44,458 nucleotides of DNA from Salinivirgaceae bacterium (GTDB taxonomy: Bacteria; Bacteroidota; Bacteroidia; Bacteroidales; SZUA-534). The stretch covers positions 1-44,458 of the forward strand of contig JAQICC010000345.1 in the NCBI GenBank assembly GCA_027858735.1, read 5' to 3'. Below are positions 6,301 through 29,361 of the stretch, one piece after another; within the stretch, counting starts at the first letter, position 1; each line of letters begins with the position of its first letter. A program made the position numbers and the translations under genes. The notes beneath the pieces were generated by a model. The model saw only the letters and a list, made by a program, of their open reading frames with translations, did no database searches and was not told the origin of the DNA.

Positions 6301-9300
6301 TTGCAAATAGTAACATCAGAGCCTGCATTGGCTTGAGTAGGCTGTTTGTTTACAATTAAAACAGAATCGGATTTGCTTGCTATGTATGAAGTACTTACGG
6401 TCCATCGTAACCAATTCTCTCCAGGTCCTAAGTTGGTAACTTCAGTTTCATGGTTTGTATGATCCGCAAAATTAGCTTTTGACCCGCTAATAACACTCCA
6501 TTCTCCTTTAAAAATACCAGGGCTATCAGCACTTAACTTTGTACTATTTTTACAAATTATTTGATTATCACCTGCCTCTGGGTCATCAAGTATATTATTT
6601 ACAATTATTACAGTATCAGAAAGTGGGCATAAATTTTTACGTTTAACGGTCCAAACAAATTTATTTTCACCTTGTTGAATATTTTCAACCTCTGTTTTAG
6701 GATTATTGGGTTCCACAAAACTACCTCCTCCTCCAATTACTCCCCACGTACCAAAAGTTTCATCCTCAGGAATATCGGCATCCATATCAGCTCTGTCTGA
6801 TTCATTTATTTGATCGACTCCTGCATAAGGTGGATATGGTAAATAGTTAAAAAGGTTAACCGTATCGGCACTAATACAACCACGATTTGTAACCACCCAC
6901 ACAAATACATTTGTATCTTGATTAAGCCTTTCAACAAAACTTGATGGAGAATTGATTGATTGAATCAGTCCTGTTCCGCTACCCGGAACTACACTCCATG
7001 ATGCCCCACTAAGGGGTGCCATGGCATTAAAATTGGTGGAGTCGGAACACAATACCTGATCGACACCGGCATTCACAAAAACAGTATTGTTATAAATTTC
7101 AACGGTATCGGTATTAGGACACCCGTTAACATCAGTAACTGTCCATGTTAATATGTTATTACCACGTCCTATTGCTGTCAATTGGGTGTTTGGTTTGGCT
7201 TGGTCTTCAAAAGTAACTGCACCATCTTCTAAAGTCCAAAGACCTGTACCTCCTGATGGTACACTGTTTCCATCAAGTATGGTTGCATTGGTACAAAGGT
7301 TTTGTTCTGTACCGGCTTCAACATTAGGTAAATCGTAAGCGGTAACATCCATACTTAGCGTATTGCTTACACCACAAGCATTTTTACCATAAACAGTTAT
7401 TTGATCAGATATGGCCGATGTTCCATAATTCACTACTAATTGTCGGGTAGTTTCACCCGATGCAATAGTGCCTCCAACCGGAATGCTCCAAACATATTCT
7501 GAAGCATTTGTTATTTCATCCACTTCATAAAGCACTCCTTTTTGATTTACACAAATGGTATTGTCGCCAGTTAAATTTGATGCTGATCCCGGCAATGGGT
7601 TAACCGAAACTGAGAATAAAGCCGAAGTACCTCCCACGCCACAGTCATTTTCAGCGTAAACTGAAATATCAACATTAGAAGCTGTTAAACTGACATCAAC
7701 TGTAATTGTTCTGGAATTATCGCCTGAAACGATGGTAAAACCTGTCGGTAATATCCAATTATAACTTGTAGCGTTAGCAATGGCCGCAACACTATAGGTA
7801 ACACCCGCTTCTCCCTGGCACACTTGACTAGAACCACTTACAAGACCTGCATTACCTGGTAATGGATTCTCACCAACAGTAACGCTACCGTTCATTAAAG
7901 TGCGACAATTTGTTGTTGTATTGTATGCATAAACAGTATATCGACCTGTGTCAGCTCGAAAGCCAAAGCTTATGGAATCTCCATCGCCCAATTTATCCAG
8001 AATTAAAGTAGTTTCATCTAACCAAAGTTCGTAATTGGCTGTTGTTTGTGAATTCGATAAGGTTACTTCAACGCCACTTGTACCTTCGCAGAAACTACCA
8101 CCCCCCTCAACTGTGTATTTAACGGGTAGCGGTGCAATGGCTAGAGTACCTGTAACTTCAGGACTTTCACAACCTTTGATAGTTTGCGTTGCATAATAAG
8201 TATAGATGCCGTCATTCGTTTCTAATGATTGGTATGTAGTTTCCGTTGAAATAACTGAACCAGTAATATTTTTATACCAATTAATTTTAGAACCCACCGC
8301 AGTAAATGTTGGATTAACATCTCCCTCGCAAACTTCAAGTGCATCATCAACCAATGAAGGAATGGCAGGAATAGAATTTATTACATACTTGGTTGCTGCT
8401 TGATTACTTTCGCAATTATTGGCATCGGTTTGGGTTGCATAGTAGGTATATGTTCCAACTGCTGATTCTGTTGGAATATAGTTTGTTGCCTGAATTAGAA
8501 ATGCGCTTGTATTATCGTACCAGTTAATAGTAGTCCCGATAGCCGAAATATTCACATTGGCATCATCAAAACATACCGAATCACCAATGGTTACCGGTGC
8601 GTCAGGCAAGGCATTTATAGTTAATATTACCTCAGTAGCTGAGGTGCTTTCGCAACCATTCGTGCCGGTTGCTGTAGCATAATAGGCGTGATTACCTGCC
8701 TCCGTATCCACTGGAGTATAAGTATCACCGCTTCCAACAAAAAGCGATAAAGCTACATCGGCATACCATTCAATATTGGTACCCGATGTTTTTACAAAAG
8801 AAGGATTTGCAGTACCAAAACAAGTACTCGTATTCGGAATCAAAGGAATAGTTGCTGGGTCAATATCACTTTGAACTTCAATGTATTCAATGGTTGGACA
8901 ACCATTGGTATTATCGGTTACGGTTACAAAATAGTCGCCAGCAGCAAAAACCGAAGTAGTATATGAATTCGGGTTAGATATTGCACCCGGACCTGTCCAT
9001 GCATAACTAAAATCAGCATCCTGATTCACACTTATGGTAACTTCACCAACGGCACATGTAATTACTCCTGAAGGTGCAACTGGTGTAACAATCGGGTATA
9101 TCTTGTTATTAACAACAGTTATATCAACCGAAGTATCTCTACAATTCGTTACATTATTTTCAACAATCAGATTATAGATACCCGCAGAATTTACGGTAGC
9201 ATTAGCCGTAGTAGCTCCCCATATAGTTCCAGGAGTTGCCTTAATCCATTCGTAACTAACATCAGACATATTACTTACTGTGCCTGTTAGCTCAACGATA

Positions 9301-12300
9301 CCATCGGTACAGGTAATTTCATCAGGACTGGTATTCACATTTATTGTTGGATAAACAATATTATCATCTACATTAATAGTTTCGAAGTTACTGCAGCCAT
9401 TGTTTAAGTCAATAACAGTAACAGTATAATCGCCTATAGCATCTACCAACGGATTTAAGGTAGAGCCACCACTCACTATATGTGAACCAACACCTTCTGC
9501 CCAAGTTACTGTTCGCAATAACGAAGTAGTGCTAGCATATGCTTTAATAGCAACCTGAGTTTTTGAACAGGTGATATCTTCGGGGTTATCAAAAGTAATT
9601 ACCGGATCTACTCTATTTTGTTCAACCGTAATGCTTTGTACAGCTGCACACCCTGTACTAATTTGCTCAATGGTGACAGTATATGCGGCTGAAGTAGAAA
9701 CCGTAGGATTTATAATTGTTGTGCTAGAAGTAAAGGTTCCCGACGATGTCCAATTAATGGACTTATCTATACCCGGAATAGCAGGTGCATCGGCATACAG
9801 TTCGACTTCAAGTACACTACAAGTTAAAGTATCGGGATACTCATCGAAACTAATAATAGGAATTGAATTATCCTGATCTACATCGAATGATTTACTTGCC
9901 GGACAGCCAGATATATTATGCTTGCCGGTAACTGTATATTTACCTTTTGCATTTACTGTTACTGCAACCGTATTTTGACCGGTAACAATATTTCCGCCAT
10001 TAGTGGCAAGCCATGCATAACTTGCAGCATCGGTTGAACCGCTGGCATCTAATACCACAGTAGGATTGGTACAAGTAATATCCATGCCAGGGTCGGCTAT
10101 ATCCATTGTGGGAACTCTGGAATCTTTTGTAACCTCTGTCATATCGGACTTTGTACAACCATTTGCCGGATTGGTTACAGTAACTTTATATTCTGCAGCA
10201 GCATTTATAGTAGGCGTTGCCGAATTTATATTGGTAATATGGCTGCCTGCTAATGCTGTTTCCCAAAGCCATTGCCTGTTTAGTGTTGTTGATGATGCAG
10301 ATAGATTTAGTGTTGTTAAATTACACGATAATTCTGTAGGCCATGTAACTGGTAAAGCACCAAGATTAGGTGTAATTGTATCAATACCAATCACTAAATT
10401 GGTAACACTTGTTGTGGTACAACCATTGGGACCTGTTACTGTAAGTTGGAAAGTACCATCAGCATTTACGGTAGTTTCCCGACTTTCGTCATCACCAAAA
10501 GTTGCAGTACTTGGTCCAATTATAGACCATTTAAAGGTTGCTCCCGGAGTGTTTGAATTACCACTTATGGTTACTAAATCAATTTCACAAGTAATATTTG
10601 GGTAATTGCTTGTTAAGGCTGAAATATTTGGAGGTAGCTCATCAGAATCTACAAAAACATCTTTATTGCTTGAACAACCATTGGCGGCAGTTGCTTCAAT
10701 ATTATACCAACCACTTGCATTCACTGTAGGGTTTAATGAAGTTTCGGTACCTGCAACCACACCCGGTCCTGTCCACAATACCGTTCCAAAATCAACAGTA
10801 GCAGCCAGTTCAGGAGTTGGATCAGTACACGTAATTTCATAGCCACTACCTACAATATTAATGGTTGGTTCTAGTAAATCATCAGTAATAACAACTTCAC
10901 TAGTATCTTTACAACCTGTAGTATTATTCGTTGCAATTAGCTCATAAGTACCATCTTGGGTAATTACTGCAATATCGCTTGTTCCACCTGTTTTTATATT
11001 ACCATCACTGGTATTCCAAATATAATCGTTAGCATCAGTTGTTGTCGATGCATCAAGTGTAATGGTATCGCGTGAACAAGTTATTATTGTTGATGGATAA
11101 GATATGTTTATAACTGGCTTAGTTAATAGCTCATTCACTTCAACATCTGCATCTTGAAAACAACCCGTAATTGGATGTGTTGCCCTAACCGTATAGGTAC
11201 CTTGTTTATTTACATAAGGATTGGCAATTTCATCATCGCTTATGGTTGCGCCGACAATGGCTGTGGTCCATTTATAAGTTGCTCCTGCAACAGCAAATGC
11301 TTCAATTTGAACAAATGAAACATTGCATGTTAAGGAATCGGTCGCAATTGGTGTTACTGTTAATCCAGGCGATGTAAGTATCTCTTCAACTAAAACTGAA
11401 GTTGAATTGGTACAGCCACTTGTGCCGTTTTCAACCAATAATTGAAAAGTACCGGGACCATTAACCGTAGCAGTAGGTACATTAGTTGGCGGAACCAAGC
11501 TTCCTGAACCCAAAATTTTAGACCAAGTATAAGTATCGGCTACAGCGGAGCTGCCAGTAAGCGTTACTGTTGTACGAGTACATGTAAGATCTAAAGGAGT
11601 TGCAATTGCAACATCAGGTGTCACCGTGTCGGGCACTACAGTTTCATTATTCTGCCCGGTACAACCATTTGGTGCAGTACCTGTAACAACAAAATTACCG
11701 GGTTGATTCACCGTTACAAAGGCATTCGTGCTAGGTGGTACAATACCTACTCCTGCCCAACTAAATGTAGTTCCAGCTATATCAGATGTTGCGGTAATAA
11801 CTTCCGTAACATCATCACACGATATTTTATAGGTATCGGGAACAATTGAAATTACAGGATCTGTATTATTCTGGGTAATTGCATAGGGTGCAGATGTTGA
11901 TTCACAGCCAGTTAATACATTCTTAGCAACCAAAGTATAGTTACCCCCTGCATCAACATTTATAGTATTTGAACCTTGACCGGACACAATATTTCCGCCT
12001 GGAGAATTAGTCCATGAATAACTAAATGCGTTTGTAGTTGCAGAAGCATTTATATTTATATCAGGATCGGTACAAGTAATTTCAGTAACTGTTGATGTTA
12101 TGCTTATGCCCGGATAAATTTTATTTTCTAATACTGTTACATCTGCTGAATCTTTACATTTGCTTGTTGCATGAGTAACAATAACTTTATAAATTCCTGC
12201 TGCATTTACCATTGGGTTAGGCGCTGTAGTATTTGAAATGCTACCTCCAGTACCCGTCGACCAACTATAGGTTGAACCTACAGGTGCAGCTGTTGCCTCA

Positions 12301-15300
12301 ACCTGAACTTGGAGTAAATCACAAGTTAGCCTATCGGTTGCAGGACTTACAATGTTTATAATAGGAAGATCAATATTTAATCCGACCACAACAGTATCTT
12401 CAGAGCTACAACCATTAGCCGCTGTGGCAATTAAAATAAATTCACCAGGCCCATCAACCGTGGTTGATTTGGCTAAATTATTGGTAATATTTGCTGAACC
12501 CGATTCTCTTATCCATTGGAAAGTTGCGGCCAAATCGGGTGAATCGCCGGAAATTGTTGGGCTTGTGATATCACAGGTATAATCGTCGGACGGATCAATA
12601 GAAATTCCCGGAAGATTAATATCATTATCAACAGAAACAGTAGCACTATCTTTACAACTATTAACGGTGTTTTCTACAACAATTTTATAGGTACCTGCAA
12701 CATTTACATCAGGGGTTAGTGTTGCAGTTCCACCTGTTATGCTTGGCCCGGTCCATAAATAAGTATTATTGGCAGGTATTGGCGAACCATCAACACCATT
12801 AAGTTGTATGGTAGGATCTGTACACGTTAAATCAGCTGCTGGATCAATCGAAATTATTGGGTCATCCTGATCAATTGATACAGTAATACTAATTGAACGT
12901 GGACACTCTGTAACTGAATGGTAGTAGGTAAAGGTATACGTTCCGGCTGCATCAACCAAAGCCGTAATGGCATCAGTTGGTCCAATAATATTACCGCCTG
13001 CTGTAGTCCATTCATATGTTCCGGTACCGGGATCTCCGGCAGCAACAACACCTGTTAATGTTAGTTGTTTGTTATTGGCACAGGTTATATCGGCAGTTAA
13101 ACCGTTGTCAATAGAAACAGCCATTTCAGTAAAATCAGGATCAACGGTTATTGATTCAGAAAGCAGTGAAGTACAACCACTGGTAGGGTCTACTGCCACC
13201 ACCGAATAATCTGCAGCTGCATCTACAATAGCAATTGTATCATTAACTCCTATGGTATTTAAAATGTTACCACCCGCACCTGCAGTCCAATTAAAAGTTG
13301 GATTAGTTAAACCTGTTGAACTGGCAAAGGCTTCAAGTTCTACTTCTGTATTCCCACAAGTAATTTCCGCAGGATTTACATCGTTATTTACCAATCCGGT
13401 AACTACTGGGTAAATTCTACCATCGGCTACTGTAACTGTATCCTCGTTAGCACAACCGTTAACCATTGATGTTGCTCGTAAAATAAAAACACCGGGTCCA
13501 TTTACCGAAGTTGATTGAAAAGCAGTATTGGCAATTGTTCCTGCACCGGAATCTTTTCTCCACAGGTAGCTAACTGCTGTGGGTGAATTTCCAAAAATTA
13601 CAGGGTTGGTAGTATTACAAGTAAAATCGTTTGCCGGGTTCACAGAAATATTGGGAAAAGCTGTATCAACACCTGCCAGGGTACTTGCAGTATTAAAGCA
13701 ACCATTAGGTGCTGTAGCCGTAACGGTATACGTTCCAATTTCATCAATCTCAATTTCAAGCTGACTCACATTTGTAATAATACCCGGACCGGACCATGTA
13801 TAAGTAGTATCGGCTACTAAACCAACTCCATTGTCGGCTACAATAATTGGTGTTAAATCGTTACAATCAATTTCGTAGGTTAAAGGTATGTCGACAACCG
13901 GAGGTATTTGATCTAAAGTAACAACGGTTTCAAAAAAGTCTTCACATCCTGTTACCGAATGCGCATAAGTAAGTCGATAAGTTCCTGCAGCATCAATTAC
14001 TGCATCTTCGGCATTTGTTGGGCCTACAAAACTTCCTCCTACTGTAGTCCACGCATAAACGCCACCTACATCACCACCTGAAATTACGCCATCAAGGGTT
14101 AAGGTACTACCTGCCATACAAGTAAGTATAGCAGCTGGTCCATTTGCAATGGAAACACCTGCAGTTGTTGAAACATTAATAACGGGCTCAGCCGCACTTA
14201 ATGTGCTACAACCATTAATTGGGTCGGTTGACGTAACAAAATATTCGGCAGCCGTTGTTACGGTATTATTTTGGTTATAAGTTCCACTTATTGTTCCTAC
14301 TGTACCACCAGCTCCAAACGACCATACAAAAGTAGCATTTGCAACATTTGAACTTGCTTGCAAATCAACGTCATTTGTACAGGTAATATTCGTATTTACA
14401 GCTTCAACATTTGTTATAACAGAAGTAGGATAATCACGTTTTAAGATTACCTCAACAGTTTCTTCGGAATAACAACCATTACCACCAACCCCATCTTGAG
14501 TTACACGTAGGGTATAAATACCCGGTAAATCAACATCGGTAAAACGGTTGTTTTGTGCACTATAAACTGCACCTGGAGGCCCATCCCACATATATGATAC
14601 AAAGGGTGTTGTTGATACATTACCTTCTATTAGAACAGCTGCATTATTACAATTTAAAGTGTCGGCCACCGGTGTAATTACCCCAATATTCGGTTCATCA
14701 AGATTTTGATTTACATGAACCGATGTAGTAGTAAAGCATGAATTATCAATATTAGTAACCGTTAAATAATAATCGGCTGTAGTATCAACCACAGGGGTGG
14801 CTGAATTGGCTCCACTAACAATAACCCCAGCAGGGTTTGATGTCCATACAAAACTGGAATTGAAATAATTGGAATTCCCTTGCAAATTAAAAGAAGTATT
14901 GGAACATGTTACTTCAGCAGGGGAATTAATAGAAATGGTTGGATCTGTTTTATCGGGTAATACAGTTATGGTATCGGTATTATAACAGGCCTTACCATTG
15001 GTTGTTACTTCAATTTGCACTACAAAATTACCTTCATGAGAAGCACTTGCTACATTTGTGTTTATTGCTCCATCTATAACACCGCCACTTATTCCAGTCC
15101 AGTTCCATGCAATACTTGTAGCGGGGGGAACTGTTTCACTAGTTGTTGCATTTAAGTTTACTCGACTGGTATTGTCACATGTAATTACATCACCAGCACC
15201 AAGGTCATTTATACTAACATTCGGAACCGGATTAACAGTAATATTCTGAGTTACCCAGGTAGATCTTCCGCAAGGATTTACTGCCTGAACGCGAACAATA

Positions 15301-18300
15301 CCAGAAATGGACAAAGGATCACCAGCTGCAAAATCAATAATTATATTTGCTGCACTAGAATCAGACACAATCACACCGGATGTGGTTTCCCATAAGAATT
15401 CTGTTTCATTGGTAAAATCATCCGGATCAATTGCAAAAGCAACAGCCAATTCACCTTCACAAACTACATGTGTTGCGGCCAAAGCTCCTGGTAAAATATC
15501 AGCCGCGCCTAAAGCAATTGGTAAATCAAGAATCTCAATATCAATATCTGCAGGTGCTCCATCATCACAGGCATTGCGGCCAAACACTGTAATGGTTTCA
15601 GTTGCTGGCCCAGCTGTACCAGGGTATGTAATCGTAATTTTTTTAGTATTATTACCTGAAATTATATTTGCAGAAACTACATCCCAAATGTATGAGGTTG
15701 CATATTCAATAGTTGGTATTTCAAAAGTATAGGTAGTAGAACCATCAGGGCAGACATTTACACTTGAAGCTACAATACCACTGGCATCATCTGGTAGGGA
15801 GTCGACATTGATAGTAGCGCTATTTGTCATCCATTCGTTACAGGTGGCACCTTGTGCTAAAACTTTATAATTTCCTTCAGGTTCTAGGGCTAAAAAATCA
15901 AAAGCTCCTGTGCCAGAGGCATTTGGATCATAGCTATCACCCGTTGAATTTCCATCACGATACAATAAATAGATTACATCAGCTTCTGATCCGCTCAGAT
16001 GAATATCCAACCCTCCAGCATCTTCACAATAGTTTCCACCACCTGATACGGAGAATTTTGTAGGTGCAGTGGTAACATTTACGGTTTGCAAAGAACTGTC
16101 AGAACACGTAAAACCATCAGTATATTTATATTTTATTATAAAAAGACCCAATAAGCCATTGGGATCAAAACGAACCGTATCCACCCAGTTATTTGGATCA
16201 GCATCAGAATTATCAACCCCGGTTACGCCGATACCGGAACCCGAAAACTGCCCTCCTACCTGGCTGCCCACAAGCAATATAGATGCTGCATTTTGACAAT
16301 AAGTTGCAGGTAAATTGGAAAAATTAACTGTTGGGCTTTGGTGAATGGTTACTAGTTGAGAATCCGTTCTAGCACAGCCCTCACCATTACTTACCGTGTA
16401 TTCAACTACAAAGGTACCTAGCGCCTGAACGCTATCAGGAGTAAATTTTGCTGTACCATTACCTAAGTTTTCAAAAGCAATGGGTGCTACCTCCCAATCA
16501 GTTGGAACATTCCAAGTACCATACACTGGTATTGTTGCGCTGTTGCTAGCCGGGCTGCCAATTATTGTAACTTCTCCATCGGATTCACAATAATTAGCGG
16601 CTAAATTATTTATGGCAACATTTGGTATAGGATTTACAGTAATAAATTTACTTATGGTATCCGTATAACACCCTGTAACTGGATTGGTATAATGATAGGT
16701 TATTTTTGAAGTTCCTGCTCCGGCAGTTTTGGGTTCGAAATCTCCAATATTAACACCAGTACCCGTGAAATAGCCTCCATTACCTAACTGGTTACCCACC
16801 AATATTTGAGCATCATCATTTTGACAGAAATTTATATCCGTATCTTCAAAATCAAATAAGCCACCTGCTCCAATGGTAAACCCTAAATCTGCCAAAGGAT
16901 TAACCATTGCAGTTTCTGTAGTAGTATTAGAACACCCTGCTTCACTATATTCATAATCTATGCGATAAGCACCCGGTTCGTTTGCATTAATAGAAACTGT
17001 TCCAGGAGCTGCTACATTTATCGAAACCAATGTTGTATCATCCTCAGATGGATCAGCATCCGGGTCAAAATGGATATGCCACTTTCCGGGATAACTATCA
17101 ACCACTAGAAGTTGATCATCTTCTCCATCACACATATCGTCAATAGCTGTTATTGCAACGGGGTAACCTACATTTACCTCTATATCATCGAATCCAGTAC
17201 AACCTGGGGTAGTAACTGTATATGTTATGGTGTGTGTTCCCACTCCTGCTCCTCCAGCATCATTGGGGTCAAAAGTACCAGTCCCATCTCCTGCATCTGT
17301 TAAACCAGCAGCCGCAGTAGTGGTAAGTGTTCTAAATATTACCCCTGGATCAATTGGGATATTATCTGTGGTTGTTATAGGTACAATAGCAGCACCAACA
17401 TTACAAAAATCTGCATTATTGAGAGGCGCATCAATTGAAACTGTAGTGGCATCGTAAGGTAAAATTGTTATATCTCCAGAAACACTATCGGTGCAACCTT
17501 TTGTATTTGTAAATGTATATGTAATCGGATAATTATTATCAGTATTATCAAGAGGATCTGTACTAAACTGATTAAATGAAGGTCCATTGGTTAAATTAAG
17601 TGATGGACTTGTCCATTTTGAGCTAAGATTTATTCTATTGGGAACCAAAGTAACATTTCCCATGTTCTGACAGTATTCTGCTCCATCATTTGTTATTGAA
17701 AGAAATGGTAAAGATGAAACTGTTATATCTATACTATCAACTCCTTTACAATCATTATTGTCTGTAACAGTTGCATAAAATGTATGATCAAGATCAGGGG
17801 CATCAGGTACTGGATTGGTAGGAAATTCTGTAATACTAGGATCAGTTTGAGCATTTGGCGACCATAAAAAACCAGTAAAGACTCCACTACCACCAGATGG
17901 AGCTGCCGTAAGTTGTACTGATCCACCATGACAAATATGATTTAAAGTCGCATCAGAGGTAATACTAACATTAGGATTATTAAGATGCGTAATTTTAACC
18001 GTGGATGTGTCCCTACAGGTAAATTCATTAGTTACAATTAAAGTATAAGTTATTGTTGCAGTTGGATTAACATTTTCAGTTATGTTTGTTCCTACACCAA
18101 CCCAATTATATGCTAAGTTTAGCGCTCCAGTTCCTGGTACAGAGTTTGAACCATCCAATAATGTTCCTACTCCATGACACATTTCATCAGGAGATCCTGC
18201 ATTTGCAGTTGGGGTAGGATTTACAATGATATCAACCGTATCTACACCATAACAACCTGAAGTATCAACTAATTCTAATGTAACCCAAGTAGTTGACGGT

Positions 18301-20657
18301 GGTGCAAAAGTATATAAACCGGGTTCACCCGTTCCTGAAGGTCCTCCACTCCAATCCCATGTTGCTGTTGGTTTATTTGATTCACCTTTCAATGAAATCG
18401 ATCTACCTTCACAAATAGTAAAAGGTCCACCTCCCTCACGGCTTATAGTAACATTGGGTGTTGGATATACTTTCATATTTAAAGACTCTGAAGCAAAACA
18501 CCCATTCCCATCAGTAACCGTAACGCTATAGGTAAGGTCATTTAATGGTTTAGCTAAAGGCTCTTCTATATCATTGAAATTTAAAGTTGCACCATTGTTC
18601 CATGCATATGAAACTATTGGAGCTGCTGAAGTAGCATTTGCATGAAGTTGAGATGCTATTCCTGAGCAAATAGTAGTATCATCAACAGTTATTCCTGTAC
18701 CAAATGATGGCCGCAAATTTTTTGTTATTGTAACCCCTGGTAAATCAACTGAGCAGCTAGTGCTTTGATCAGTAACCCTGATAAAATAATCTGCTTCAGT
18801 GACATTACTCCATACTAAATTGGCAGCGGCAGCCCCACTCTTGGTTGTTAGTTGTATTGGAACCGGTAAAATATCCCGATAAAGGGTATAATCGGTATTG
18901 GCATCAATATTATTAACAGTTACTGTTCCACCAGCTCCTCCATCACAATAATCGGTAGCATCAACTATTTTTGTATTATCTGGCAAAGGATTGACCGTAA
19001 CTATTGAAATATCTGTAAGCACAGATTGACATCCTAATCCGGTAGTCCGGGTAGCCAGAAAATTATAATTCCCCGCAACTCCTGAACTTAAAATAAATGT
19101 CAAATCTCCTGCTCCATCCTGAGGGGCTTCGATAGGATTGTTTGAAGCATCCCTCAGTTGATAAGATGTATTAGCTTCAGCTGTGGACAAAGAAATATTG
19201 GCATCATCCCCACTGCATATTGCTGCATCGCCTACATCTAATCCCGCATTTGGTAAGGGCAAAGCATCCACCACCGCCATATCGGTAAGGGTTGCAGTAC
19301 ACCCAAAACTTGATGTTGCCTCAACTGTAAAATTATTTGTTCCCGTAGTAAGCGGGGTAACAGCAAATGGAAGGTCACCCCCATTGCCCGCACTTGGCCC
19401 GGCCTTTGAAACTGCTCCCAGGAAAACTTCATAATTTATTAAAACCTCTGTGTTACTAACCGTAATATTAATAGGAGAATTGCTACATATTTGACCGTCA
19501 GAGACTGTTAACGTGGCATTCGGCAGCGATTTTTCAAGGACATCAATTGTACCTGACATTGGTTGTGTACATGTTCCGATAGCCTCCACAGTGTATTCTC
19601 CAAAAATAATGTTTGGCCAGGTTAAAGCCGCACCTGTACCTTCTTTTTGAGCGCCATAATCTATTCCATACCTAATAAGCTGGTAATCAACACCAACATC
19701 GGAACTCGACAATTCGAGCGTGACTCCGCTACTGCCCGTACAATAATAATCATCGCCAACTTCCGAGAGTGTATAGTCGTTCAAAAAAGTAAGCGTTATC
19801 ACAGCATCGCCAACCATTGTTTCGGTACAACCAGCCCCCATATCAGCTTCTATCGTATAAGTTCCGGCGGTATTTACGCTCCAACTTAATGGCCCACCAT
19901 CACCAATTTTTACGTTACCTGTGGGTCCTCCATTCTTATATAATTCATATTCCACACCTGCCTCTGATCCATCAGTAACAACATCAGTGTATCCACCAGG
20001 ACATATATTTCCATCACCTGAAACATTATATTGAATAGGATTGGTAGCAGAAAAGAATATTACCACCTCATCAAAGGGTGAGGGGGATAATCCAGAACAT
20101 GGGCTTGTACCTCCATGAGTGACTGTCCATCTAAAATAATTTGCACCAGGATCTAATCCCGTAACAGTGGTATTAAATAGGGCATCATTGGTAATGGTAG
20201 CCCCGCTGGTCGTTGTCCATTTTCCGACTGCTGTTGCTGTCGGAAATTTGGCGATTAAATCTGCCGGATTACCTGCTGCCAAAGTTGTATTGTCAACACA
20301 AACCGTTTTGCCTAAACCTGCATAAGCTGACCAATTTGAAATTATAACATCATCGGTGGTGGTTGAACCATTTTTTAACACAGTCCATGTATATCTATTA
20401 TCTCCCCAACCAATTTTTGTTACATGCGTATCGTATTGATTTGGATTAGCAAATACACCGGTACCAAAACCCGCATTTACAGTCCAGGTACCTACCCCAC
20501 CCCCCGGGTTACTTCCTGCAAGGTCGGTATAGTCCTCACAGAGTGTTTGATCGGATCCGGCATCAGCACCAGCCGCAAATGTTTCTTGGATATGACCCAA
20601 CAAGAAAAAAGCAATAAGAATAAATGATAAGGATTTTATATGAAGGATTCTTTTCAT
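3360..20657 (-). CDS. Giant modular T9SS-secreted surface protein (Ig/PKD-like repeats, gliding-type C-terminal domain)
   Basis: This single frame of 5765 residues covers 39% of the window. Residues 1-28 are a signal peptide ending near ETFA-AG. Then come two AGxDQTLC..GxW..N(R/F)xTWTV modules; a set of glycine-rich VSGDGNICPGG-type and PKD-like modules to about residue 1800; an array of 25 Ig-like modules of about 85 residues (about 1810-3925), each starting P-x-I-x-I...(I/L)TC and closing near NGC; three YYATxT..GCES modules (about 3925-4190); one EGGGSFCEG module; two PKD-like modules; 13 further AGxDQxxC modules (about 4440-5495); and PKD domains with WDFGDG near 5526. The last ~110 residues (FPDAFSPN..NDVF..YNRIGVMVF..WDGYY..DVYVYLVQGKY) form a CHU_C/gliding-type B domain that directs T9SS export. 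No enzyme domain was seen. The likely role is adhesion or gliding, as in SprB, coupled to the downstream PorP/SprF gene. Confidence 0.9.
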   Translation of the reverse strand: MKRILHIKSLSFILIAFFLLGHIQETFAAGADAGSDQTLCEDYTDLAGSNPGGGVGTWTVNAGFGTGVFANPNQYDTHVTKIGWGDNRYTWTVLKNGSTTTDDVIISNWSAYAGLGKTVCVDNTTLAAGNPADLIAKFPTATAVGKWTTTSGATITNDALFNTTVTGLDPGANYFRWTVTHGGTSPCSGLSPSPFDEVVIFFSATNPIQYNVSGDGNICPGGYTDVVTDGSEAGVEYELYKNGGPTGNVKIGDGGPLSWSVNTAGTYTIEADMGAGCTETMVGDAVITLTFLNDYTLSEVGDDYYCTGSSGVTLELSSSDVGVDYQLIRYGIDYGAQKEGTGAALTWPNIIFGEYTVEAIGTCTQPMSGTIDVLEKSLPNATLTVSDGQICSNSPINITVSNTEVLINYEVFLGAVSKAGPSAGNGGDLPFAVTPLTTGTNNFTVEATSSFGCTATLTDMAVVDALPLPNAGLDVGDAAICSGDDANISLSTAEANTSYQLRDASNNPIEAPQDGAGDLTFILSSGVAGNYNFLATRTTGLGCQSVLTDISIVTVNPLPDNTKIVDATDYCDGGAGGTVTVNNIDANTDYTLYRDILPVPIQLTTKSGAAAANLVWSNVTEADYFIRVTDQSTSCSVDLPGVTITKNLRPSFGTGITVDDTTICSGIASQLHANATSAAPIVSYAWNNGATLNFNDIEEPLAKPLNDLTYSVTVTDGNGCFASESLNMKVYPTPNVTISREGGGPFTICEGRSISLKGESNKPTATWDWSGGPSGTGEPGLYTFAPPSTTWVTLELVDTSGCYGVDTVDIIVNPTPTANAGSPDEMCHGVGTLLDGSNSVPGTGALNLAYNWVGVGTNITENVNPTATITYTLIVTNEFTCRDTSTVKITHLNNPNVSITSDATLNHICHGGSVQLTAAPSGGSGVFTGFLWSPNAQTDPSITEFPTNPVPDAPDLDHTFYATVTDNNDCKGVDSIDITVSSLPFLSITNDGAEYCQNMGNVTLVPNRINLSSKWTSPSLNLTNGPSFNQFSTDPLDNTDNNYPITYTFTNTKGCTDSVSGDITILPYDATTVSIDAPLNNADFCNVGAAIVPITTTDNIPIDPGVIFRTLTTTAAAGLTDAGDGTGTFDPNDAGGAGVGTHTITYTVTTPGCTGFDDIEVNVGYPVAITAIDDMCDGEDDQLLVVDSYPGKWHIHFDPDADPSEDDTTLVSINVAAPGTVSINANEPGAYRIDYEYSEAGCSNTTTETAMVNPLADLGFTIGAGGLFDFEDTDINFCQNDDAQILVGNQLGNGGYFTGTGVNIGDFEPKTAGAGTSKITYHYTNPVTGCYTDTISKFITVNPIPNVAINNLAANYCESDGEVTIIGSPASNSATIPVYGTWNVPTDWEVAPIAFENLGNGTAKFTPDSVQALGTFVVEYTVSNGEGCARTDSQLVTIHQSPTVNFSNLPATYCQNAASILLVGSQVGGQFSGSGIGVTGVDNSDADPNNWVDTVRFDPNGLLGLFIIKYKYTDGFTCSDSSLQTVNVTTAPTKFSVSGGGNYCEDAGGLDIHLSGSEADVIYLLYRDGNSTGDSYDPNASGTGAFDFLALEPEGNYKVLAQGATCNEWMTNSATINVDSLPDDASGIVASSVNVCPDGSTTYTFEIPTIEYATSYIWDVVSANIISGNNTKKITITYPGTAGPATETITVFGRNACDDGAPADIDIEILDLPIALGAADILPGALAATHVVCEGELAVAFAIDPDDFTNETEFLWETTSGVIVSDSSAANIIIDFAAGDPLSISGIVRVQAVNPCGRSTWVTQNITVNPVPNVSINDLGAGDVITCDNTSRVNLNATTSETVPPATSIAWNWTGISGGVIDGAINTNVASASHEGNFVVQIEVTTNGKACYNTDTITVLPDKTDPTISINSPAEVTCSNTSFNLQGNSNYFNSSFVWTSNPAGVIVSGANSATPVVDTTADYYLTVTNIDNSCFTTTSVHVNQNLDEPNIGVITPVADTLNCNNAAVLIEGNVSTTPFVSYMWDGPPGAVYSAQNNRFTDVDLPGIYTLRVTQDGVGGNGCYSEETVEVILKRDYPTSVITNVEAVNTNITCTNDVDLQASSNVANATFVWSFGAGGTVGTISGTYNQNNTVTTAAEYFVTSTDPINGCSTLSAAEPVINVSTTAGVSIANGPAAILTCMAGSTLTLDGVISGGDVGGVYAWTTVGGSFVGPTNAEDAVIDAAGTYRLTYAHSVTGCEDFFETVVTLDQIPPVVDIPLTYEIDCNDLTPIIVADNGVGLVADTTYTWSGPGIITNVSQLEIEIDEIGTYTVTATAPNGCFNTASTLAGVDTAFPNISVNPANDFTCNTTNPVIFGNSPTAVSYLWRKDSGAGTIANTAFQSTSVNGPGVFILRATSMVNGCANEDTVTVADGRIYPVVTGLVNNDVNPAEITCGNTEVELEAFASSTGLTNPTFNWTAGAGGNILNTIGVNDTIAIVDAAADYSVVAVDPTSGCTSLLSESITVDPDFTEMAVSIDNGLTADITCANNKQLTLTGVVAAGDPGTGTYEWTTAGGNIIGPTDAITALVDAAGTYTFTYYHSVTECPRSISITVSIDQDDPIISIDPAADLTCTDPTIQLNGVDGSPIPANNTYLWTGPSITGGTATLTPDVNVAGTYKIVVENTVNSCKDSATVSVDNDINLPGISIDPSDDYTCDITSPTISGDSPDLAATFQWIRESGSANITNNLAKSTTVDGPGEFILIATAANGCSSEDTVVVGLNIDLPIINIVSPATDRLTCDLLQVQVEATAAPVGSTYSWSTGTGGSISNTTAPNPMVNAAGIYKVIVTHATSKCKDSADVTVLENKIYPGISITSTVTEITCTDPDININASATTNAFSYSWTNSPGGNIVSGQGSNTINVDAGGNYTLVAKNVLTGCESTSAPYAITQNNTDPVISIVPDTYKISCDDVTEVITATSDIAGTTFSWAGVGIVPPSTNAFVTVNQPGNFVVTGTAPNGCTGQNNETVVPDTVTPDVAIATPLDLTCTRTTVTLTGSSAVADTYTWSKILGSGSLVPPTNVPTATVNGPGTFQLLVENGTSGCTNSTSVLVEEILTSPGLTVTPIATDSLTCNVSFVQIEAFAVAGATYKWTTAIVGATISDDEIANPYVNKQGTYTVRATHPITGCFQDADVEVNELLTKPVINISYPSTIITCSRDTITLDASTTTDANDYIWNTSDGNIKTGGTSDIAVITQDGTYELIATNNTTGCKDTSEVVITDDLLEPTINIVGSGYEITCTDPTPELAATVDFGTVLWTGPGVVAGTETSLNPTVNASGWYNIEATAANGCSSNKDVFVDSDELPPNISALTSNYPNITCEIDLVTISGNSNTPGATFKWSIIGPSTATFGDDESRETTVNADGTFQLTVTGPNGCTTTSVTNLVIGIDTITPNLGALPVTWPTELSCNLTTLNLSASSTTLNRQWLWETALAGSHITNINSATPTINAAAEYKVTVTNPANGCTKSDMTEVTKDSRVPTMDIADPGMDITCTNPTVVLDASGSTDAASYAWLATNGGNIVTGQNTVAVTVNAKGKYTVTGKHNISGCPASKSFDVDQDNSIPIISFDEYPDTLTCSVLEVELYADAPAIPGIDKSINWTSSGTFTSSTTIINPTVSTSAAYTVTIEQISTGCAAVQSITVEQNRVDPVITFDNPEDITCSKTQVAIKAYASTTSLLRTVTWAEGVGSHIVSGGSTLNPLVDAIGDYTVTVIDLNNGCSNFETINVDDNIVYPTINVNTSPDEITCTDGIVELTGTVSNMSDVSYEWIKATPGTIWGATTANATVNSAGIYNLIVENNVTNCRDTSVDITVVNNKIYPIVTPVAPSGVITCAVGEVTISVNQDADFSYAWTGPGAISNPNSYTTSVFAAGDYFVTVTDNTNGCPTIEYIEVQSDIDPATIPLIPNTSTCFGTANPSFVKTSGTNIEWYADVALSLFVGSGDTYTPVDTEAGNHAYYATATGTNGCESTSATEVILTINALPDAPVTIGDSVCFDDANVNISAIGTTINWYDNTSAFLIQATNYIPTESAVGTYTYYATQTDANNCESNQAATKYVINSIPAIPSLVDDALEVCEGDVNPTFTAVGSKINWYKNITGSVISTETTYQSLETNDGIYTYYATQTIKGCESPEVTGTLAIAPLPVKYTVEGGGSFCEGTSGVEVTLSNSQTTANYELWLDETTLILDKLGDGDSISFGFRADTGRYTVYAYNTTTNCRTLMNGSVTVGENPLPGNAGLVSGSSQVCQGEAGVTYSVAAIANATSYNWILPTGFTIVSGDNSRTITVDVSLTASNVDISVYAENDCGVGGTSALFSVSVNPLPGSASNLTGDNTICVNQKGVLYEVDEITNASEYVWSIPVGGTIASGETTRQLVVNYGTSAISDQITVYGKNACGVSNTLSMDVTAYDLPNVEAGTEQNLCTNATILDGNSVPSGGTGLWTLEDGAVTFEDQAKPNTQLTAIGRGNNILTWTVTDVNGCPNTDTVEIYNNTVFVNAGVDQVLCSDSTNFNAMAPLSGASWSVVPGSGTGLIQSINSPSSFVERLNQDTNVFVWVVTNRGCISADTVNLFNYLPYPPYAGVDQINESDRADMDADIPEDETFGTWGVIGGGGSFVEPNNPKTEVENIQQGENKFVWTVKRKNLCPLSDTVIIVNNILDDPEAGDNQIICKNSTKLSADSPGIFKGEWSVISGSKANFADHTNHETEVTNLGPGENWLRWTVSTSYIASKSDSVLIVNKQPTQANAGSDVTICNNSIQLSANTPIYGIGKWIISSGQGELIDSLENSMFTNIGQGDNLLKWQIINERCVSEDFVTITNNTPTQANAGLDQTICFDSTSLLPNTPTVGAASWSVFSGKGGIVGNSVSGLASDTNIMRYTITKGTCFSVDDVVIVNNNPTTPQAGYDLNICTDTITLDANRATQGNGLWTVRSGSGEFSENTLQNSFVSNISYGTNIYRWTITKNGCAEYNELTVSNNYITSDAGKDIILCSDEFELLASNPEPGVGTWSIVGASGAAFENQNDPNTMVKSLSNGKNQLRWTIENSGCIAYDDVVVTNNKPTNALAGEDQAVCGRETQLRGNTPIYGTGQWVVMGGSGIFDDSTDSRTTISGLGVGENTLRWTITEKECYSYDEMVITSNYPINVFGGNDQTVCSDSTALSATAATIGLGQWTIISGSGNFDDASSNETIIRNLGKGDNFLKWTVTSSDCHVIDTVIITSSIPTPAIAGADQILCSAKTNLAANSPLVGTGEWVLVSGSADILNTNIPNSEVTSVGLGESTLRWTISLDGCYSNDEITLTNNQPSTPNAGYDTEVCGDSVRLFADPPTVGVGVWSLVSGDAVIDDASSNQTIVNRIKFNDNTFRWTITNKNCILYDDVIVTNNYEYVDAGVDQTVNTPYTQLIANNPAQGSGMWEVSASPATIETANSFETLVNGLGSGANIFTWTITNKGCTSYDDIVINYVVMPQADFDPSSVKGCPPMLVNFINTSIGGAPYSWDFGDGETTNDQSSYHVYNEAGAYKVVLTATAPLGMTVTKDTFITVYENPFADFDVAPKTVYIPGENISCFNYSINADSSQWFFHKDGVYINDWTPQYAFADTGWQDITLKVTSSEGCTDDTTLFEIVHVLPRSNFIFPDAFSPNPGGGSGGVYDETDRSNDVFYPMIVNGELFDYEFYVYNRIGVMVFRTTDVDIGWDGYYKNKMQPNDVYVYLVQGKYNNGQPFKKTGNVLLIVKEH

Positions 20658-21235: not shown

Positions 21236-21937
21236 ATGATTGAACCTATTCTCCATGGCAAATATTACCATATTTATAATCGCGGCATTAATAGCTGTAA
21301 TATTTTTGAATCGACGGCAGATTATGAACATTTCTTGAAACTGTATGATAAATACATTTCCTCAATTGCAGAAACTTATGCCTGGTGTTTGTTGAAAAAC
21401 CATTTTCATTTATTGGTTCGCATAAAAGAAGTAGATGAGATTGGTTTTTATAAATACCATGAAGAAGATTTTAAATACGAACAAGGTAAATCGAAAAATG
21501 GTTTAATTTATGATGATGTAAAGTGGCAAACCACAACAATGAAACCTGAAACAATCGTTGATAAACGAAAACTAAGAGTTCCAAATCCGACCAGTCATTT
21601 TAAACACCTGTTTAATTCGTATGCAAAACACTTTAACTTAACGCATAACAGACATGGAGCTTTATTGGAAAGACCTTTTCTGCGAAAAAAGATAACCCAT
21701 GAAAAGTATTTTAAACAGGTAATTATTTACATACAAAACAACCCTGTAAAACATGGGTTTGTTAACAAACCTATTGAATGGGGATGGAGTTCCTTTTTGG
21801 GGTATTTTTCTGATAGACACAGACTTCCAAGCAATAACGAAACGTTAAGACAATTTGGAGACTTAGAAAATTTCAAGGCTGCTCATTCGATGAATACTGA
21901 ACTGATTGAAATTGAAAATATGCTTGGGGTAGAATAA
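21236..21937 (+). CDS. REP-associated tyrosine transposase (RAYT, Y1_Tnp domain)
   Basis: The 233-residue protein carries the HUH motif as H56-F-H58 within KNHFHLLVR and the probable catalytic Tyr165 in IIYIQNNPVKHGF, the form typical of RAYTs. It is followed by EWGWSSF (181-187). RAYTs are single-copy relatives of IS200/IS605 transposases that cleave and join single-stranded DNA at REP hairpins. The larger Bacteroidota version has an insert between the two motifs, as here. It is intact, with no stop or frameshift. One ~117-bp palindromic repeat lies 71 bases before the start codon and two more lie downstream, all in the same orientation, which makes them its likely substrates. Confidence 0.9.
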   Translation: MIEPILHGKYYHIYNRGINSCNIFESTADYEHFLKLYDKYISSIAETYAWCLLKNHFHLLVRIKEVDEIGFYKYHEEDFKYEQGKSKNGLIYDDVKWQTTTMKPETIVDKRKLRVPNPTSHFKHLFNSYAKHFNLTHNRHGALLERPFLRKKITHEKYFKQVIIYIQNNPVKHGFVNKPIEWGWSSFLGYFSDRHRLPSNNETLRQFGDLENFKAAHSMNTELIEIENMLGVE

Positions 21938-25511: not shown

Positions 25512-25722
25512 AAAACCAGTGTCATGTCAAGCATAACAATACAGGTAAATTAACCTTTATTCCCCCTTCGCCTCCCGAGAAATCGGGACAAGTTATCGGC
25601 ACTTTACTGAAGCAAGTTCGGTACGACCTGTTCCGAACTTATTTCGGAAGGCTCCCCAGGAAACCCAAAGGGAGAGGGGGAATTATAAGCGTCATATATG
25701 ACATGACACGACACTAGTTTTA
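25512..25722. mobile_element. Non-coding inverted-repeat element (MITE/REP-like)
   Basis: The left end AAAACCAGTGTCATGTCA (25512-25529) is the imperfect inverse of the right end TGACATGACACGACACTAGTTTT (about 25699-25721). Nested inside, TTCCCCCTTCGCC near 25560 faces GGGAGAGGGGGAAT near 25671-25683, with smaller TCCCGA/TCGGGA and TTCCGAA/TTTCGGAA hairpins between. The nested TTCCCCC..GGGGGAA arrangement is shared with the interior of the insertion at 1644-1980, so the two may be related. It encodes nothing. Confidence 0.6.
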
Positions 25723-25950
25723 TTATTCTTGTATCTCATTGCAACAGCTCGGTAATATTTTTTAATGCTTTGATTATGAGAATATTAAAAACTAAACCAT
25801 TGATTGTGTAACACGCTGTAATTCAGTATTATAATTTTTGTCTAATATCTAATAACTTGCCTCGCCTTTTGGCGGATCTTAAAATCTACCAATCTACTGT
25901 CATAATCTACCGATCCAATATTATTAACTACATAAATGGCAAAAAGTTCA

Positions 25951-25972
25951 TATTCAAATTGAAATTTGAATA
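25951..25972. promoter_or_regulatory. Palindrome upstream of the cys promoter, possible operator
   Basis: TATTCAAAT and ATTTGAATA form perfect 9-base arms separated by TGAA. The centre lies about 50 bases upstream of the -33 element of the cys promoter, a position suited to an activator or repressor site. The base composition is simple, so chance cannot be excluded. Confidence 0.3.
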
Positions 25973-26009
25973 AAATATGGTTAAGAATTTGTTAATGTAT
26001 AAAGTAATA

Positions 26010-26039
26010 TTGCCTATTCATTTCGATTTCGTACTTTTG
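26010..26039 (+). promoter_or_regulatory. Promoter of the cysteine biosynthesis operon
   Basis: TACTTTTG at 26032-26039 matches the Bacteroidota -7 consensus TAnnTTTG exactly. A TTG at 26010-26012 supplies the -33 element with 19 bases between. Transcription is expected to start near 26046, leaving about 12 bases before the leader peptide ATG at 26058 and about 170 bases before the serine acetyltransferase gene. Confidence 0.7.
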
Positions 26040-26057
26040 TTGAGAGAATAATTATAA

Positions 26058-26135
26058 ATGAGAATTAAAAAACAAAATACAAAAGCCAAATGTTGTTGTA
26101 TGTGTAGCATAAAACAAGGGCATTTTTGTATGTAA
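26058..26135 (+). CDS. Cysteine-rich leader peptide of the cys operon
   Basis: This short frame encodes 25 residues, MRIKKQNTKAKCCCMCSI then KQGHFCM, and ends in TAA. Five residues are Cys (12, 13, 14, 16 and 24), including three consecutive TGT codons at 26091-26099. It starts about 12 bases after the predicted transcription start and is followed, 28 bases after its stop codon, by a strong intrinsic terminator in front of the genes that make cysteine. Clustering of codons for the pathway's end product is the mark of ribosome-mediated attenuation (compare the trp and his leaders). I therefore infer that its role is regulatory: ribosomes stall on the Cys codons when Cys-tRNA is scarce. It has no Shine-Dalgarno, as is usual here. 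Confidence 0.8.
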   Translation: MRIKKQNTKAKCCCMCSIKQGHFCM

Positions 26136-26192
26136 TTTTAAACAATATAATATTAAATATTACAAAGCCCTTTCAGTATTGAAAGGGCTTTT
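26116..26192 (+). promoter_or_regulatory. Cysteine attenuator: alternative antiterminator pairing
   Basis: AAGGGC at 26116-26121, inside the leader peptide codons just after the Cys cluster, is complementary to GCCCTT (26167-26172) in the 5' arm of the terminator. With one bulged A (26122) the next TTT (26123-26125) also pairs with AAA (26164-26166), giving nine base pairs. A ribosome stalled at Cys codons 12-16 would leave this segment free and allow the antiterminator. A ribosome that reaches the stop codon at 26133 would cover it and let the terminator form. This is inferred from pairing and geometry, without folding energies. Confidence 0.6.
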
Positions 26193-26199
26193 CTTTTAC
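26164..26199 (+). terminator. Intrinsic terminator between leader peptide and serine acetyltransferase
   Basis: AAAGCCCTTTC (26164-26174) and GAAAGGGCTTT (26181-26191) form a perfect 11-bp stem with a 6-base loop, followed by a T-rich tract TTCTTTT. It lies 18 bases before the ATG of the downstream gene and after a promoter pointing into it. This placement only makes sense if it is conditional. Confidence 0.85.
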
Positions 26200-26217
26200 C
26201 TTATTAATTAAATAACC

Positions 26218-27048
26218 ATGAATAAAGACAGTTTTTTAAAACAAATTGGACAGTTTAGAGCCAACGCCAAAGGAAAAGTTCCGAAAATTAAACAGAGTTA
26301 TGGTTTACTAAAAAGAATTACCGAACTACTTTTCCCTATTTTAAGTAAACGCGATGCATTTGATATTCCAGAAGAATTCGAATTTATTTCAAAACAAACT
26401 GAATTGCTACTCGTGTCAATTAATTTTAACAAAGAAGAGGCTGAAAGCATATGCAACAAATTTATAAATGAATTCGAAAATATTTACAAGCTATTGCTTA
26501 AAGATGCCGAGGCTATTTATAATGGTGACCCTGCGGCAGAATCAATTGAAGAGGTTATTGTAAGTTACCCGGGATTTTATGCTATTTGTGTTTATCGTAT
26601 ATCACATGAATTATATAAATTAAACATCCCTATTTTGCCTCGGTTGTTTAGTGAATATGCTCATAAAAAAACTGGAATTGATATTCATGCCGGAGCCAAA
26701 ATTGAAGAATCGTTTTGCATTGACCATGGAACAGGAATTGTAATTGGTGAAACCACAATTATTGGTAAACACGTAAAGATTTATCAAGGTGTAACTCTTG
26801 GTGCCCTGAGTGTAACCAAAGATAAGGCGGGAAAAAAACGTCACCCTAGTATTGAAAATAATGTTACTATTTATGCCGGGTCAACTATTTTAGGAGGAAA
26901 AACTACCATCGGAGCCAACTCAATTATTGGTGGAAATGCTTGGTTAACAGAAAGTGTTGAACCCTACTCTGTAGTACTTAATAAAAGTGAAGTTTATGTT
27001 AAAAATAAGAATCCTGAGTATGAAAGTGTTATTGATTTCGTTATATAG
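26218..27048 (+). CDS. cysE: Serine O-acetyltransferase (EpsC/CysE type)
   Basis: This enzyme transfers acetyl from acetyl-CoA to L-serine, giving O-acetylserine, the first step of cysteine synthesis. The 276-residue protein has a helical N-terminal domain (about 1-150) and a left-handed beta-helix of hexapeptide repeats (about 150-245). The catalytic Asp-His pair is D169-H170 in [19 protein letters not shown] follows (190-196), and H209 in KRHPSI matches the second active-site His. The protein ends in isoleucine, as do serine acetyltransferases that insert their tail into the cysteine synthase active site to form the CysE-CysK complex. The adjacent downstream cysteine synthase supports that. 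Expression is probably set by the leader/attenuator upstream. PGAP-style naming would be epsC. Confidence 0.95.
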
Positions 27049-28100: not shown

Positions 28101-28120
28101 CTTCGACTTCGCTCAGTTAA

Positions 28121-28340
28121 CAGTCTTCAGTCTTCAGTCTTCAGTCTTCAGTTTGGGTAAATTGTGTTTAATTCTTAAAATACCGAAAATATATTTTTTT
28201 TTAGCCTGAGGTTGATGAAATAAGGAAAAAAGCTGTGCTTTTATCAATTTTAATTTGGAACCAATTATAAAATCAATCTCCTTTTTATACAGTTTTTAAT
28301 ACTGGTGACTGCCTACTGTGGACTGAAGACTGAAGACTGA
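28121..28340. repeat. Heptamer repeat array with inverted counterpart (cysK/tsaD junction)
   Basis: Four and a half tandem copies of the heptamer AGTCTTC occupy 28121-28152. The inverse heptamer GAAGACT occurs twice intact, with degenerate copies before it, at 28314-28340, directly abutting the tsaD stop codon. The two arms could pair over about 25-30 bases around a loop of roughly 160 bases. The structure lies between two convergent genes and might stop transcription from both sides. The loop itself (28153-28313) shows no gene. Confidence 0.7.
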
Positions 28341-28341
28341 T

Positions 28342-29361
28342 CTAGATTCCAAACCTTGCTAAAGGAGTAATATCCTGAGATGCAAAGTCACCTTTCAAAT
28401 ATTGATAATGGCCAGTAATGGCAATCATTGCAGCATTATCGGTAGTATAGGCAAATGGGGGTATGTGCATTTTTAGTTGTCTTTGCTCTGCATAATCCAT
28501 TAAAGTTTGACGTAGCCTTGAATTTGCACTTACACCACCGGCAACAGCCACTTCTTTAATGCCAGTATCCTTTACTACTTTATCAAGCTTGTCCATTAAT
28601 ATTGCAATAATGGTACTTTGCAACGAAGCACATAAATCGGCTTTTTTATCCTCAATGTAATTTGGATTCTTTTTAATATTATCGCGAATATGATAAAGAA
28701 AGCTCGTTTTTAATCCACTAAAACTATAATTATAGCCATCAATTCTTGGTTTCGATAACTTAATCTTATTCGGATCACCTCCTTTTGCTAACTTATCAAT
28801 TAAAGGTCCTCCCGGATAAGGCAGATTCATAACTTTTGCACATTTATCAAAAGCTTCACCTGCAGCATCATCAATAGTGGAACCTACAACTTCCATTTCA
28901 AGATGATCTTTTACCACAATAAGTTGTGAATGTCCACCAGAAACAAGTAAGCATAAAAATGGAAATTTTGGCTGATTTGTATCATCGGGGTCTTCCTTAA
29001 TAAAATGAGCAAGCACATGCCCTTTTAAGTGATTAACCTCGACCATTGGAATATTTTGGGCTAACGAAAAACCCTTTGCAAATGATGATCCCACTAAAAG
29101 TGACCCCAGCAAACCCGGACCTCGTGTAAATGCCACAGCGGTAATATCATCAACAGACAAGCCCGCTTGTTTTATAGCAGCATCAACCACCGGAATAATA
29201 TTTTGCTGATGAGCCCTTGATGCCAGCTCGGGCACTACTCCGCCATAGCGTTTATGCACCTCTTGGTTGGCTATAAAATTCGACTTTATTACACCATCAC
29301 TTATAACCGAAGCGGAAGTGTCATCACACGATGATTCTATCCCTAAAATATTAATACTCAT
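28342..29361 (-). CDS. tsaD: tRNA N6-adenosine threonylcarbamoyltransferase
   Basis: TsaD transfers threonylcarbamoyl from threonylcarbamoyl-AMP to A37 of tRNAs that read ANN codons, acting with TsaB and TsaE. The 339-residue protein has the family opening LGIESSCDDTSAS, the iron-binding His pair H111 and H115 in VNHLKGHVLAHF, and the ASKH-fold phosphate motifs VSGGHSQL and VAGGVSANS. Length is standard. The start codon is supported by the immediate family motif at residue 6. The stop codon abuts the heptamer repeat. The gene is divergent from the TamB-like gene with only about 120 bases between them, a pairing I recall as common in Bacteroidota. Confidence 0.96.
   Translation of the reverse strand: MSINILGIESSCDDTSASVISDGVIKSNFIANQEVHKRYGGVVPELASRAHQQNIIPVVDAAIKQAGLSVDDITAVAFTRGPGLLGSLLVGSSFAKGFSLAQNIPMVEVNHLKGHVLAHFIKEDPDDTNQPKFPFLCLLVSGGHSQLIVVKDHLEMEVVGSTIDDAAGEAFDKCAKVMNLPYPGGPLIDKLAKGGDPNKIKLSKPRIDGYNYSFSGLKTSFLYHIRDNIKKNPNYIEDKKADLCASLQSTIIAILMDKLDKVVKDTGIKEVAVAGGVSANSRLRQTLMDYAEQRQLKMHIPPFAYTTDNAAMIAITGHYQYLKGDFASQDITPLARFGI

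Follow-up and report, generated by a model that had tools for sequence, protein, structure and literature searches.

Sequence and comparative analyses suggest that the region upstream of the cysE-cysK operon is very probably a trp-type transcription attenuator that acts through the ribosome and responds to cysteine. It lies in the window, the whole 44,458-nt stretch of DNA that was analysed. The attenuator interpretation put forward in the original prediction is supported, with all of the proposed elements present and a comparative test in its favour. The elements and their joint conservation stood; the interpretation was refined in that the leader belongs to a family serving several sulfur genes, and the part that fared less well is a hairpin between regions 1 and 2, which is weakly supported across the set of leaders.

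The original prediction had described an exact TAnnTTTG promoter, a 25-codon frame about 12 bases after the expected transcription start, the codons TGT-TGT-TGT-ATG-TGT at the centre of this frame, and a perfect 11-bp terminator between the promoter and the operon. All four were found again at the positions listed in Table 1, the promoter box by direct reading of the sequence. Transcription would be expected to start near 26046, about 12 nt 5' of the leader ATG. The TAnnTTTG motif, which we take to be the Bacteroidota promoter consensus, was found upstream of 18 of the 30 leaders described below, against 2.45 expected from shuffles. In three leaders upstream of cysK (L075, L087, and L099), this motif begins 13-14 nt before the leader ATG; these may therefore be almost leaderless, as in mycobacteria, for which Canestrari (2020) reportedly described polycysteine leaderless short ORFs. 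Beyond the control codons, the frame in the window has a further Cys at codon 24. The terminator has the form AAAGCCCTTTC-N6-GAAAGGGCTTT, which gives a perfect 11-bp stem, or 12 bp with a 4-nt loop, followed by a T-rich run. It lies 26 nt before cysE-cysK. The arrangement exceeds chance, as a Cys-cluster frame together with a terminator occurred in one of 2000 dinucleotide shuffles of 25641-26217.

Table 1. Positions of the leader elements and the operon genes in the window.
Feature	Position	Strand	Basis
Promoter, Bacteroidota-type	26010..26039	+	TTG 26010-26012, 19-nt spacer, TACTTTTG 26032-26039; read from sequence
Leader peptide frame, MRIKKQNTKAKCCCMCSIKQGHFCM	26058..26135	+	ATG 26058, TAA 26133-26135, 25 codons
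Region 1 (ACAAAAGCC), predicted to pair with region 2 as protector hairpin	26079..26087	+	Minimum-energy fold
Control codons TGT TGT TGT ATG TGT (codons 12-16, CCCMC)	26091..26105	+	Read from sequence
Region 2, putative antiterminator strand	26116..26130	+	AAGGGC 26116-26121 and TTTGTA 26125-26130
Region 3, terminator 5' side, predicted partner of region 2	26161..26172	+	Fold; pairing test
Intrinsic terminator, hairpin 26164-26191 and T-rich tail to 26198	26164..26198	+	Sequence; covariance-model match 26091-26198
cysE, serine acetyltransferase, 276 aa	26218..27048	+	Hexapep above cut-off; SATase_N 20.3 bits, just below cut-off 21
cysK, cysteine synthase, 300 aa	27198..28100	+	PALP, E 9.6e-78

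The two genes of the operon make cysteine, and the amino acid that would be sensed is thus the product of the operon. Other features of the window were noted by eye. A TTCAGTC-like unit is repeated in runs between cysK and the next gene (28118-28345), with inverted copies at the far end. On the minus strand, a single repeat-rich frame of 5765 residues (3360-20657) resembles a very large secreted protein and is a putative one. A plus-strand frame of 233 residues (21236-21937) looks similar to REP-associated tyrosine transposases and may be one of them.

The segment just after the Cys codons had been said to form nine pairs with the 5' arm of the terminator. Region 2 can in fact form slightly more, 12 pairs with 26161-26172 and one 3-nt bulge. 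If a ribosome occupies the Cys codons while the 3' arm has yet to be transcribed, AAGGGC and TTTGTA are predicted to pair with TACAAAGCCCTT at -11.2 kcal/mol. A truncated RNA is predicted to take up this pairing without a ribosome as well. Region 1 resembles region 3, and is paired with region 2 in the fold of the window.

Leader translation, ribosome stalling, termination, read-through, and the direction of the response are predicted to proceed in the following manner. RNA polymerase would start near 26046, and a ribosome would begin the leader frame. When charged Cys-tRNA is ample, the ribosome would reach the stop codon and cover region 2; the terminator could then form, and transcription would end before cysE. 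Under a shortage of charged Cys-tRNA, it would instead halt on codons 12-16 and leave region 2 free. The free region 2 would pair with the emerging region 3, the terminator would not form, and cysE-cysK would be transcribed.

Homologues of CysE were found in 67 of 99 relative genomes (E 0.001), and in 144 of 295 genomes of the order and 48 of 295 genomes of the class (E 1e-40). From these matches, 157 loci were taken (not all CysE matches), of which 152 have at least 300 nt upstream. A Cys-cluster frame with a terminator was found in 30 of the 152 loci. By gene order, the leader occurs in 22 of 69 cysE-cysK loci, in five of 19 cysK-cysE loci (before cysK), and in three of 64 loci with no cysK found alongside. 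Three loci with two Cys in six codons and weak or distant hairpins (L080, L102, and L153) were dropped by hand before this count; the set of 30 includes L028 and L135, which have two Cys in six codons, and L089, whose terminator lies 131 nt from cysE. A stricter first detector identified 23 leaders on the operon strand of the 157 loci, all directly before cysE or cysK, and one match on the opposite strand of the same loci. The leader was absent in 122 of the 152 cysE loci, some of which (L005-L012) come from other genera within the same family; it is therefore not obligatory.

By a tally of family labels, the 30 leaders come from 20 families, and the sequence outside the shared elements mostly differs among them. 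The original prediction had proposed an alignment of these upstream regions. The Cys codons, the frame, the terminator, and the competing pairing are kept together in the leaders of the 20 families. Of the twenty amino acids, only Cys shows strong enrichment in the frames that precede these 30 terminators: 28 of the 30 regions have three Cys or more within six codons, against 0.9 in shuffles. A fairer test, since the 30 leaders had been chosen for at least two Cys, starts from the terminator: 31 loci have one between -30 and +80 nt relative to the first gene, and 29 of these have a Cys frame, which in 27 of the 29 holds at least three Cys within six codons. Leaders that keep the terminator and lose the Cys codons or the frame, which would speak against the attenuator, were looked for and are rare (2 of 31; L151 has no frame, and L080 has a doubtful one). 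The Cys codons of the leaders are mixed (TGT 104, TGC 34), which points to conservation of the amino acid and not of the base. The same leader recurs at L036/L161/L212, L137/L165/L202/L210 (close relatives), L160/L173, L191/L197, and L199/L236.

The genes behind such leaders were surveyed by a pattern scan of a genome collection of 84,980 species. The pattern asked for four Cys codons and, after them, a GCCCTY-type terminator; the gene downstream could be of any kind. Of the 59 matches, 34 have a sulfur gene next or close behind. These 34 counted loci include cysE or cysK (14) and a CysM-like gene (two); sulfite reductase (nine, with a siroheme-type methyltransferase behind it in six); O-acetylhomoserine sulfhydrylase (four); a 211-residue gene, a peroxiredoxin in L162, followed by cysH (two); a YeeE-type sulfur transporter (one); a rhodanese (one); and DUF4395, followed after about 1 kb by a sulfhydrylase (one). 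L161 was assigned by reading its frame, and its leader is identical to that of L212. The records are labelled as Bacteroidota or Ignavibacteria under older or lower names in 33 cases, and as Deferribacteres in one (L193). No start codon was found for L181, where the stretch begins too near the Cys run, and the nearest start in L207 gives a 102-residue frame. Two leaders before sulfite reductase genes (L184 and L200) have eight consecutive Cys codons. The other 25 matches were not counted. Three of them (L174, L185, and L192) are leader-like but have 179, 6, and 255 nt downstream, respectively. In the remaining 22, no sulfur gene was identified within 3 kb by nine protein queries, and five of these have less than 1.4 kb downstream; 13 are labelled as other phyla, two are unlabelled, and seven are Bacteroidota. 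The leader in the window is, judged by the genes that follow its relatives, one member of a family serving several sulfur genes and not special to this operon.

The pausing of the ribosome might also report a signal other than uncharged Cys-tRNA, such as oxidised or blocked tRNA-Cys, a drug, or arrest by the nascent peptide. Upstream frames are reported to sense general translation stress (PMC12121999), and the sensing of oxidants is conceivable from the chemistry of Cys. In the leaders, however, codon identity is kept and the flanking residues are not, as sensing of the tRNA predicts, and the target genes make or feed cysteine. Attenuation by another signal is thus considered very unlikely, and the cysteine-responsive attenuator is the preferred reading.

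The antiterminator of the attenuator was tested by pairing the segment after the Cys cluster with the terminator 5' arm of the same leader; the arms were exchanged among leaders in 10,000 permutations. For the 30 leaders, the native energies sum to -406.8 kcal/mol, against -282.2 (sd 13.5) after swapping, and none of the 10,000 permutations was as low. For a second set of 32 leaders, obtained with the pattern that left out the antiterminator segment, the values are -458.0 and -359.6 (sd 11.7), with 0 of 10,000 as low; in both sets, the permutation figures overstate independence, since the leaders are related. Two of the 34 counted loci (L168 and L205) were left out of the pairing test, as the detector found no terminator. 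Against shuffles of its own segment, the antiterminator has p<0.05 in 22 of the 30 leaders and in 25 of the 32. That of the window is marginal by this measure (p 0.07), and no convincing antiterminator was found by the own-shuffle test in L184, L162, and L062 (p 0.97, 0.43, and 0.55, respectively). A control on the uncounted pattern hits (12 of the 25 usable) gave -103.1 against -87.5 (sd 5.3), with 29 of 10,000 permutations as low and four hits with p<0.05, a weaker result than for the two sets, though not a null one. The antiterminator changes in step with the terminator: UCUGUCCGG in L075, CUUGGAGG in L061, UUUUGCAUCG in L103, and GGUAGA in L059/L060 each match their own partner.

For the hairpin between regions 1 and 2, exchange of the partners across the leaders gave -291.5 for the native set against -225.1 (sd 13.0), with 0 of 10,000 as low, a result that composition may explain. 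Against their own shuffles, only seven of the 30 leaders have p<0.05 (mean z -0.8), and the window has p 0.11. The protector hairpin was therefore counted as weak: it is predicted in the fold of the window, and the comparison across the set suggests it weakly.

The distance from the first Cys codon to region 2 has a median of 25 nt (16-39), and that from the stop codon to the terminator has a median of 25.5 nt (19-47). Such spacing would allow a stalled ribosome to leave region 2 exposed and a ribosome at the stop codon to cover it. These distances also bear on the possibility that the frame encodes a functional small cysteine-rich protein that binds metals or thiols or has a redox role, with the terminator ending its own short transcript. 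Clusters of Cys recall metal or thiol sites, and the peptide could be stable. Outside the cluster, the peptides vary between families and range from 14 to 57 residues with script-chosen starts, although close relatives do look alike (L059/L060 and L191/L197). The antiterminator largely accounts for the residues that follow the cluster, and the stop codon lies at the distance given above from the terminator. A functional small protein is thus highly improbable, and the frame is better regarded as the leader peptide of an attenuator.

A covariance model was built from 44 leaders, in whose alignment the near-invariant columns all lie in the Cys codons and the terminator. The leader of the window, itself one of the 44 used for training, scored 71.8 bits; in the rest of the 6-Mb genome, where 150 of 11,469 first-look candidates were scored, the highest value was 39.7 bits. 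A second cysteine leader in this genome was thus not indicated by any match above 39.7 bits among those scored, and seven further returned loci have no Cys leader. At 11 loci of the same genome matching NIR_SIR, PAPS_reduct, or Cys_Met_Meta_PP (some matches weak), the detector found no Cys leader; two of these were checked by eye. A scan of 198 genomes of the order used strict filters and scored 19 candidates in each. At E 0.05, 162 of these genomes gave some match, and the model alone is therefore not specific. Scores of at least 50 bits were found at nine places, all before cysE or cysK; eight of these had been used for training, and the ninth (L236) shares its leader with one of the training sequences. 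A leader outside the training set and before cysK (L245) scored 49.8 bits. Among 29 loci returned from other genomes (L236-L264), ten have leaders before cysE or cysK, nine of them with at least 49.8 bits and one (L250) with 45.1; 16 have no Cys leader. The other three (L246, L252, and L254) have a Cys frame and a terminator, with no sulfur gene by the nine queries and no 90-codon frame downstream, and were taken as chance. True leaders can also score low, as the place of L028 has 39.5 bits.

A ligand-binding riboswitch or a T-box with a chance short frame might also produce a structured leader before the operon. The fold is indeed strong, with 26040-26220 folding better than 200 of 200 shuffles (z -3.55). 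This possibility has an almost negligible probability: the near-invariant columns of the alignment lie in the Cys codons and the terminator, TGT and TGC alternate, and it was rejected because no Rfam family reached the gathering score in the window. Across another 38 leader loci, Rfam matched only tRNAs and SAM riboswitches, none of them over a leader.

At four loci, a cysteine leader of the attenuator type is stacked on a SAM riboswitch. L160 (1122-1586), L169, L173, and L203 each have a leader with CCCC and MM or MMM, its own terminator, a SAM riboswitch (RF00162, 65 to 74 bits), and then O-acetylhomoserine sulfhydrylase. A second terminator follows the riboswitch in three of the four. This arrangement suggests that both switches would have to be open for expression, as in a two-signal switch. 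In a wider sense, there is about an even chance that in Bacteroidota and Ignavibacteria such attenuators are a main phylum-scale system of cysteine control, one that extends over sulfite reduction, sulfhydrylation, and the uptake of sulfur as well as cysteine synthesis, with some lineages stacking the CCCC-MMM leader on a SAM riboswitch as an AND gate on O-acetylhomoserine sulfhydrylase.

The original prediction had also pointed to Cys-rich leaders in actinobacteria. In the section concerned of PMC1262725, leader peptides with runs of Cys were predicted upstream of cys operons, with no conserved terminator hairpins. Polycysteine frames of mycobacteria are cited as cysteine-responsive and acting by translation attenuation in passages of PMC9094748 and PMC13236596. 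According to a part of PMC2965389, the leader-peptide systems known by 2010 were confined to Proteobacteria and Actinobacteria, to which its authors added one in Firmicutes. For several phyla, leader genes near start codons are treated in PMC4833913, whose relevant part does not mention cysteine; leader-like short frames are mentioned for Bacteroides thetaiotaomicron in a passage of PMC7366714. From transcriptomes of Flavobacterium psychrophilum, the section of PMC9723704 on this subject reports strong clues that leader peptides placed before amino-acid operons act as attenuators. In the literature searched, no cysteine attenuator was described in Bacteroidota; the 2010 survey by Lopatovskaya et al. 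could contain one.

If the attenuator is true, many Bacteroidota might use the leader-peptide principle for cysteine, with an intrinsic terminator that actinobacterial cysteine leaders lack. The way in which a large phylum regulates cysteine and sulfur would then have an explanation that can be tested directly. The loci for testing include the named genus Runella and the complete genome of Bacteroidales bacterium CF.

Among the known systems, the leaders of Flavobacterium psychrophilum are similar in phylum and in their place before amino-acid operons; in the section describing them, no leader for cysteine is named and no evidence from covariation is given (PMC9723704). The SAM riboswitch (RF00162) also controls sulfur amino-acid genes and sits behind a Cys leader in the four stacked loci, but it is a different element and was not found in the window by the Rfam search. 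The actinobacterial and mycobacterial Cys leaders share the runs of Cys codons upstream of cys operons. They differ in that no terminator is reported and translation is the output in the parts of those papers concerned, whereas an intrinsic terminator and a putative antiterminator are present here. The trp, his, and leu attenuators have end-product codons in a short frame, an intrinsic terminator before the operon, an antiterminator after the control codons, and a stop codon near region 2. The family to which the window's leader belongs resembles them in all of these, and the features of a trp-type attenuator that can be tested on sequence are present, with weak support for the protector hairpin. 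It differs from them in that this hairpin is weak in many members, and in that the family would sense cysteine and is found in Bacteroidota and Ignavibacteria.
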